Translations under genes and position numbers: made by a program
NCBI GenBank assembly: GCA_028280665.1
Contig: JANQLJ010000031.1
Span: 1-38,959 of the forward strand
Direction: 5' to 3'
From: Alphaproteobacteria bacterium
GTDB taxonomy: Bacteria > Pseudomonadota > Alphaproteobacteria > JAJFIK01
Length of the DNA: 38,959 nucleotides
Shown: positions 18,057-20,289 of the stretch, one piece after another
Layout of the letters: every line of letters begins with the position of its first letter
Position numbering within the stretch: the first letter of the stretch is position 1
The notes under the pieces: generated by a model
The model's database searches: none
What the model saw: only the letters and a program-made list of their open reading frames with translations
What the model was told of the DNA's origin: nothing

Positions 18057-19685
18057 CTAATGCCAAGTACGTGTAAAATGCCTTCCTAAAAACCTTACGA
18101 CGGCCGGCGTAGCTCGATGGGGCGTAAGAAGCAGGTACAGGCACCAAATCAGAACATACTGTTGCATGGCAGCGGGAGCGCTGTGTTGAATGTCCTTGCT
18201 ATCGGAAACTAAATCATCCCAATTCTTTGTGATTGGCGGTATCAAGGTAACCTCTGCACCCTTCTCAGACTGAGGGAAGCAGTATCGGTACTTGGGTGAG
18301 CAATCGAAACAAATGTGGTGCAGTTTCGAAAACTCTGGCCAAAAGAGCTTGCATGTCTGTTTTTGATTTGCCCTGACCAAAAGATGCAGCAAGGGCTCAG
18401 CAAACCAAGCGCGTCCACCAAACCGATCTCTCGCAAGATGCTGATGTTCCCCTGGCGTGCGATCACCGACTAGAAGCTGATAGTAGGAATCCAAGTCATA
18501 GTAAGGCGAAAAAACATGCTCCGATCTCTCTCGGGAATTGTTAGCCGCCAGTAGATGTGAAAGGATCGAACGTAAGAACGCTTCAGATTCACTTCCGTGC
18601 AGAGTCTCGTAGTAGTACCAGTACTGAAAGATGAATTGCGGGAACTGCCACTCGCTAAAGATCTCTATGATTTTTATGTCTGAAGGTGCAGGGATGATGC
18701 TGCCGACGTCAATTTCTTCGAGATTAGATTCTAATTCCCCAGTCTTCCGGTTTAGGTAATAAATCGCCGCAAGTGCATACGTGAGCTGCTTTCGATGACG
18801 CACAAATACAATGTCAGCCATCTCATTGCGAACGAAACTAGACGCGTCTAAAGCCTCAACTACGAGCTCCTCCAGGAGTGAGCTGACCTCTGACACGCAG
18901 AGGTCAAAAAACTGTTGACGCCCCCCTGCAACTGAAAGAGCATTTCGCTCACAAAGAGCTACCGCGTGCATGAACAGCGTGACCCACCCGGAGATACAAG
19001 CGTAGTTGTTGTTCTGGTTATAGAAGTTCTTCAACACAAGAGCTGTAAGAATCGCTGCAGAAAAGATTTGTCGCGTACATTCTGCTGAGCGAAGCTTTTT
19101 TCCCTCGAAGGTCAGTATCGACTGCAGCAATGCCGAGAACCTCTTGGTAGGAAACATTCCATCACCCGATTCGGAGAGCAATTCGAAAAGTAGAGAGTAA
19201 TCACCAACTTTCTCCGGCCAAACCTGTAGGGCTACATCTCGCAGTAGATGCAATAATTCCCCGCGTGACATAGTTTGGAGGGTGCGATCTGGATAACCTG
19301 CATTGACTTCGTTTTGGTTCATTTGCGCAATAGCCAGTTGCACTTCCTCCTCAATATTGCCATTGGTCACCAAGACAGATTGGTGCGGGGTGCCAGGCTC
19401 TATAGAAGGATGAAAAACGCTTGTAGTTTTGAGTAATTGAATCTGTGGTTGAAGATCTGAGTATTGCCGAAGTGACAATCGTTGTCCTGGATTTCCTTTC
19501 AACTGATAAGCGATTAGAGCGCCATCGTTGTCTAAGGCGATAATGTCTTTGCCTAATTCGATTGGTGCGTGCCTAGTACTGTGAATAATCTTAAAACCCT
19601 TTGCGGCGAGTCCCATGCAAAAAGCCGATTGATACCCGCGCTCATTGATATTATCCAACCAGTTTTCGAGCAGCTTCTCGATCAC
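18057..19685 (-). CDS. Unknown protein with N-terminal PD-(D/E)XK-like nuclease domain
   Basis: A 542-aa protein starting at a GTG. Residues 1-110 look like an Mrr/restriction-endonuclease fold: a helix with 'ERGYQSAFCMGLAAKGFKII', then 'ELGKDIIALD' (D47) and, 13 residues on, 'IAYQLKGN' with a Q61-x-K63 pair where ExK is usual. Residues 150-540 are mainly helical, with aromatic and histidine-rich stretches, two cysteines near 'HICFDCSPKYRYCF', and no membrane segments I would trust. I do not recognise the C-terminal family. The gene is clearly AT-richer than its neighbours, with different codon use, implying horizontal transfer. It overlaps the preceding gene by 35 bases. A defence or DNA-processing role is plausible but unproven. 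Confidence 0.75.
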   Translation of the reverse strand: MIEKLLENWLDNINERGYQSAFCMGLAAKGFKIIHSTRHAPIELGKDIIALDNDGALIAYQLKGNPGQRLSLRQYSDLQPQIQLLKTTSVFHPSIEPGTPHQSVLVTNGNIEEEVQLAIAQMNQNEVNAGYPDRTLQTMSRGELLHLLRDVALQVWPEKVGDYSLLFELLSESGDGMFPTKRFSALLQSILTFEGKKLRSAECTRQIFSAAILTALVLKNFYNQNNNYACISGWVTLFMHAVALCERNALSVAGGRQQFFDLCVSEVSSLLEELVVEALDASSFVRNEMADIVFVRHRKQLTYALAAIYYLNRKTGELESNLEEIDVGSIIPAPSDIKIIEIFSEWQFPQFIFQYWYYYETLHGSESEAFLRSILSHLLAANNSRERSEHVFSPYYDLDSYYQLLVGDRTPGEHQHLARDRFGGRAWFAEPLLHLLVRANQKQTCKLFWPEFSKLHHICFDCSPKYRYCFPQSEKGAEVTLIPPITKNWDDLVSDSKDIQHSAPAAMQQYVLIWCLYLLLTPHRATPAVVRFLGRHFTRTWH

Positions 19686-20244
19686 GGAATTCTTGCCTCT
19701 TTCTGGATTCTAATTCGTCAAATTTTGCTTTCCATTCTGGTGAGGACTCAATTTCACGTTCCAAATCCTTTATCATTTCGGTCATGTGCGGTCCGATAAC
19801 AAATGAAGTCAGTGGCCTGCCCTCAGAATCGTATTCTCCTGGTATCTTTTCCAGCATTTCATAGATCATCTGTGGGGTTGGCTCACCCTTTCCAAGCACA
19901 ATTGAACTTCCTGGGGAATCTGAAGCCTTTGTTACTTCTTGATAGAAGTGTTCGGACTGTTGTTTTGCTAGTTGCTCGCCAATATTGTCTGCGATCCTAT
20001 AAAGATCCTCGATTGTTGCCTCATCCATTTCGGAGATGGGAAAGTTTTGGAAGGCCTCCGCAGATTGCAGAGGTACCACATCCACCCTGCCGTCGGGATA
20101 CTTGATATTAAATTCATGCCCTTCATGAAGAATGTGAGTGTTGTTTTGGTGTGGTACGGGTGTTCGTTTGGCTCGTTCTTCCTGCATACGCATCTCAATT
20201 GCGGCGTTCATCGCGCTCTTTGATTCACTCCAGTTTGGCAACAT
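19651..20244 (-). CDS. Unknown 197-aa protein, partner of the nuclease-like gene
   Basis: ATG complementary to 20242-20244 with GAGGGA eight bases upstream; an internal ATG at residue 12 is less likely. The protein is soluble and charged: an N-terminal basic helix ('AAIEMRMQEERAKRT'), a short strand-rich part ('HEFNIKYPDGRVDVVPL'), a central acidic helix ('SEMDEATIEDLYRIADNIGEQ'), a possible domain around 'GPHMTEMIKDLEREI', and a basic C-terminal helix 'RKRQEFRDREAARKLV'. I do not recognise a family. It is AT-rich like the next gene and overlaps its start by 35 bases, so the two are translated together and probably act together. The C-terminal 'DREA.RKLV' may be a conserved tail. Confidence 0.72.
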   Translation of the reverse strand: MLPNWSESKSAMNAAIEMRMQEERAKRTPVPHQNNTHILHEGHEFNIKYPDGRVDVVPLQSAEAFQNFPISEMDEATIEDLYRIADNIGEQLAKQQSEHFYQEVTKASDSPGSSIVLGKGEPTPQMIYEMLEKIPGEYDSEGRPLTSFVIGPHMTEMIKDLEREIESSPEWKAKFDELESRKRQEFRDREAARKLVG

Positions 20245-20289
20245 TTTTGGTCCCTCAATGGTTATCCGTTTGCCTTGGGATTCCGCTCC

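Follow-up and report, generated by a model that had tools for sequence, protein, structure and literature searches.

The two co-oriented, overlapping genes at positions 18057 to 20244 of the window (the whole analysed stretch of 38,959 nucleotides from an alphaproteobacterium) have a fair likelihood, judged by their sequences, of being a mobile anti-phage module of two genes that would represent a reduced relative of the Olokun system. In detail, the pair is probably an Olokun-like variant without the repeat platform of OloA, in which a defence nuclease is controlled by a small partner.

Both open reading frames are present where originally placed and overlap by 35 bases, as stated then; the overlap lies at 19651–19685 (table 1). 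The pair is AT-richer than its flanks, with a GC content of 0.468 versus 0.621 elsewhere in the window, and in 1-kb windows the drop to 0.45–0.49 is confined to this region. The insert is not flanked by direct repeats, and no tRNA lies nearby. Searches of Pfam, NCBIfam, PADLOC 2.0.0, and PHROGs gave no useful match for either protein of the window, and the pair adds a conserved family that these four profile libraries leave unannotated here.

Table 1. Features of the gene pair, in coordinates of the window
Feature	Position	Strand	Basis
Small partner gene	19651..20244	-	197 aa, ATG start, translated first; homologue precedes the large gene in 11 of 11 other loci
Small protein, residues 20–87, resembling the C-terminal tail of OloA (probable)	19984..20187	-	Profile comparison, probability 49.5–60.9
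Small protein, C-terminal part, residues 100–197	19654..19947	-	No match; conserved basic stretch at the end
Large gene, OloB-like nuclease (predicted)	18057..19685	-	542 aa, GTG start; OloB profile match, probability 97.3
Overlap of the reading frames, 35 bp	19651..19685	-	Length of 35 or 44 bp and identical frame offset at all 12 loci
Predicted N-terminal PD-(D/E)XK nuclease domain, residues 1–165	19191..19685	-	Predicted structure, Foldseek, match to OloB N-terminus
Putative active-site motif E43-L-G-K-D47 ... Q61-L-K63	19497..19559	-	ExG(K/R)D...QxK in 12 of 12
Helical C-terminal region, residues 166–542	18060..19190	-	No credible match; C-terminal part alone fails against OloB
GAGGG, resembling a ribosome-binding site	20252..20256	-	Upstream of the small gene's ATG; read in the sequence

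The pair is a real, rare, and mobile two-gene unit. Among 385 sampled genomes of the same class, the larger protein has two credible matches, that of the window included, and a scan of 84,980 species genomes produced nine loci with relatives of it, a number which is a lower bound because the scan relies on short conserved words. Together with the window, another alphaproteobacterium, and a Rhodococcus plasmid (the single record with the pair in the plasmid search), these nine make 12 distinct loci, the entries L005 and L010 being the same place. The hosts are Alphaproteobacteria, Myxococcales, and, through the plasmid, one Rhodococcus. E. coli genomes searched at blastn sensitivity showed no match. 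Weak matches of the small protein in two genomes (G463 and G546) and one of the larger protein (G146) were judged to be due to chance. One of the loci (L009, CAMDOZ010000008.1) is titled Candidatus Marinimicrobia; its flanking genes look alphaproteobacterial and the assembly is possibly mislabelled.

The small gene comes before the large gene at each of the 12 loci, the start homologous to that of the window being taken for the overlap. The recurrence of the pair, its order, its frame offset, and the overlap of 35 or 44 bp in 11 further loci excludes chance. The genomic sites differ among the loci, and at every one of them the pair has a lower GC content than its flanks. Between the Caulobacter and Brevundimonas copies, dN/dS is 0.215 for the small and 0.078 for the large gene, which indicates that both are maintained by purifying selection. 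Both protein trees place the copies of Rhodococcus and Myxococcales apart from the rest and join those of Caulobacter and Brevundimonas; other branches are weak. These results support the original prediction of a horizontally acquired unit, and the genes are not core genes kept at one site in relatives.

By raw count, defence genes adjoin the pair at five of the 12 loci. In Brevundimonas, the pair has an MNT-HEPN protein and a homologue of PD-T7-1 (E 5.6e-151) as neighbours; in Caulobacter, its neighbours are AbiJ and DUF4365 proteins; in a Hyphomonadaceae genome, it adjoins UzuA of Uzume (E 4.9e-71); and in Myxococcales, it is placed immediately 3′ of a type I methyltransferase gene (HsdM). 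On plasmid pdjl-6-4 of Rhodococcus qingshengii (L004:1421-16062), it is found among OLD-like, PDC-M23B/Hachiman-like helicase, and PDC-S48 genes, and this region is itself a plasmid-borne defence island. Six loci have ordinary chromosomal neighbours at differing sites, and the short Sphingomonas contig (L011) leaves little neighbourhood to be read. The window's own locus is one of the six.

In the window, uvrB lies directly upstream of the pair, shares its strand, and is separated from it by 45 bp with no predicted terminator in between. Together with the GAGGG before the ATG, this arrangement makes transcriptional read-through from uvrB possible; promoter and terminator matches around the pair do not exceed their count in shuffled sequence. 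This position would also suit a repair function connected with uvrB, or the remnant of a phage; a DNA-processing or phage-derived role had been considered equally possible. None of the other loci found, however, lies beside uvrB, and a congener (G002, contig C75, L023:927-2894) carries a convergent OLD/Gabija-type gene (AAA plus TOPRIM) directly downstream of its uvrB. The adjacency is therefore probably an accident of neighbourhood. With this gene in the position that the pair has in the window, the region 3′ of uvrB seems to be variable; the far flank could not be matched, so the insertion point is only possibly the same. Neither protein has a relative in 2.9 million scanned viral contigs, the larger one has none in 50,697 phage records, and the pair is very rare within the class. 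A repair accessory or a phage remnant is accordingly highly improbable.

The structure model of the large protein (pLDDT 76.6, pTM 0.83) comprises an N-terminal alpha/beta domain and a mostly helical remainder. For the N-terminal domain, Foldseek returned NucS (2vld), EndoMS, and restriction-type phage proteins with probabilities of 0.97–1.00 and E-values above 0.001. The nuclease-like N-terminus noticed earlier is hence recovered as a PD-(D/E)XK fold in the predicted structure, with its motif in every member. A weak fold match links the protein to 9hr5 (Lamassu LmuA; probability 0.44–0.51). WD-repeat and other PDB matches of its profile were judged spurious.

Mrr_cat (PF04471) matches three of the 12 large proteins, weakly or better (best E 1e-4); among members scored singly, the Rhodococcus homologue is the only one to pass the Pfam cut-off. 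These matches, and the location of the Myxococcales copy next to HsdM, would be consistent with type IV-like restriction, in which an Mrr-like nuclease would directly recognize DNA that is modified or foreign, with the small protein as a stabilizer. On the contrary, the protein of the window has no Mrr_cat match, the pair has an obligate small partner, which is not known as a part of Mrr, and OloB, not Mrr, is the most closely related family. This explanation is thus quite unlikely.

In a PADLOC scan of the 12 large proteins, the OloB model matches three (best 1.5e-7), that of the window not being among them. For comparison at the level of families, genuine OloA–OloB pairs were gathered from genomes and plasmids. 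The profile of the large-protein family matches that of OloB with a probability of 97.3 (E 1.7e-11, 423 columns), against at most 1.3 for shuffled or reversed profiles and at most 1.4 for eight other defence-type proteins of the neighbourhoods (one of them DUF4365). Single OloB sequences reach 49–95 against the family in nine of ten cases and 13.7 in the tenth. It is the N-terminal domain that carries the signal (97.6); compared by themselves, the C-terminal parts show no match (0.3). By profile comparison, the large protein and OloB are distant homologues, with support confined to the nuclease domain. The pair is therefore not without relatives: the view that neither protein belongs to a nameable family no longer holds for the larger one. 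A sequence search returned no solved structure related to OloB.

The small protein is probably connected to Olokun as well. Its family matches the C-terminal tail of OloA with a probability of 49.5 (60.9 when its N-terminal half is compared) and a score of 31.8 versus at most 18.6 in 100 shuffles; the profile comparison gave no match to the rest of OloA or to OloB. When just 12 sequences were searched with an HMM of OloA tails, a single small protein scored 3.4e-5, most of the others being non-significant, and in most cases single OloA sequences fail to match the family. The structure model is weak (pLDDT 65.7) and a fold search with it was empty. These comparisons make it probable that the small protein resembles the tail of OloA in its N-terminal half.

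This likeness is aided by natural intermediates. In one genome (G539, L041:4231-6806), an OloA of 300 aa retains the tail and is followed by a full-length OloB, and on plasmid pMSMB2035 of Burkholderia ubonensis (L058:1874-4975), a stand-alone OloA tail of 141 aa is immediately followed by OloB. The former case also illustrates the strong variation of OloA length within Olokun-like loci. The plasmid row consists of a nucleotidyltransferase, a protein of 174 aa that apparently has membrane helices, the OloA tail, and an OloB shortened beside an IS3 transposase gene.

The N-terminal part of OloA matches HEAT/ARM-type repeat proteins, and these repeat-type matches were the only ones in the sequence search. 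The OloA family (PDLC03925) is absent from the genome of the window and from five other carriers; in Caulobacter (G614), the only OloA lies next to another OloB, a genuine one, at a distance of about 48 kb from the copy of the pair. Because OloA was looked for and is absent, the pair is not filed as Olokun, and instead of belonging to an already named system it is a relative of one.

Under the preferred reading of a reduced Olokun relative, the large protein would be an OloB-like effector, with an N-terminal PD-(D/E)XK (Mrr-like) nuclease and a helical region, and with about the length of OloB. The small protein would be translated first and coupled to the large gene by the overlap of 35 or 44 bp. 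Most likely, it would form a complex with the nuclease through the domain shared with the OloA tail, while a module of its own, of about 100 residues, would replace the HEAT/ARM-like repeats of OloA. It would then most likely keep the nuclease quiet, or target it, until infection, upon which phage DNA, host DNA, or both may be cut. Complex formation, the direction of control, the target, and the anti-phage outcome are what we infer. The compact partner-plus-nuclease pair of defence type, which had been proposed for the window, is supported, and it recurs in all 12 loci with the nuclease motif.

In many toxin–antitoxin operons the small gene comes first. Here as well, the small gene leads and overlaps the nuclease gene, and the distribution is mobile with one plasmid copy, as would be the case in an addiction pair whose small upstream protein neutralizes a DNA-cutting toxin and whose main role is stabilization of the element. 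Type II toxin–antitoxin proteins, however, are usually smaller than an effector of 542 aa and a partner of 197 aa, the majority of the copies are chromosomal, and OloB, the relative of the effector, is part of a defence system. An abortive-infection defence would look like toxin–antitoxin, so the two readings overlap: the latter is compatible with abortive infection and differs mainly in a small protein that is a plain inhibitor and in the stabilizing role. As a separate explanation it is unlikely, if somewhat less so than type IV-like restriction.

Beyond a reduced Olokun, the pair might tentatively be seen as a separate type of defence system, in which an OloB-type nuclease is controlled by a new small sensor or regulator; OloB nucleases would then swap partners and the OloA tail would serve for docking. 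The reduced Olokun reading leads to the prediction that the OloA tail contacts OloB and that the repeat platform is dispensable or exchangeable, and a form whose partner has 197 aa offers biochemistry a smaller subject.

As regards known systems, DefensePredictor validated 13 PD-(D/E)XK systems (PMC13092281). The pair shares with Mrr-type (type IV) restriction endonucleases the PD-(D/E)XK fold, the QxK motif, and, in a quarter of its members, Mrr_cat; it differs in the obligate small partner, the long helical C-terminus, and the better match to OloB. With Lamassu LmuA it has in common a nuclease effector in a defence operon, besides the weak fold match, but an SMC-type LmuB is lacking and the conserved unit consists of two genes only.

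Olokun (OloA plus OloB) was reportedly described by Millman et al. in 2022, and is represented in PADLOC by models PDLC03925 and PDLC03926. It is named in two further works (PMC10121019 and PMC12592470) and is described as not thoroughly characterized (PMC12592470); no account of the mechanism of OloA and OloB was found in the literature searched. Its operon has an OloA of about 570 aa with HEAT/ARM-like repeats, whereas the pair has the 197-aa partner instead, and its genes overlap by 4 bp in contrast to 35 or 44 bp; the C-terminal halves of OloB and of the pair's nuclease are without demonstrable homology. On the other hand, both are two-gene operons with the nuclease-like subunit second, OloB and the large protein are similar in length and have homologous nuclease domains at their N-termini, and the first protein of the pair has, with moderate support, a region like the OloA tail. 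The pair is related to Olokun and probably has a similar way of working.
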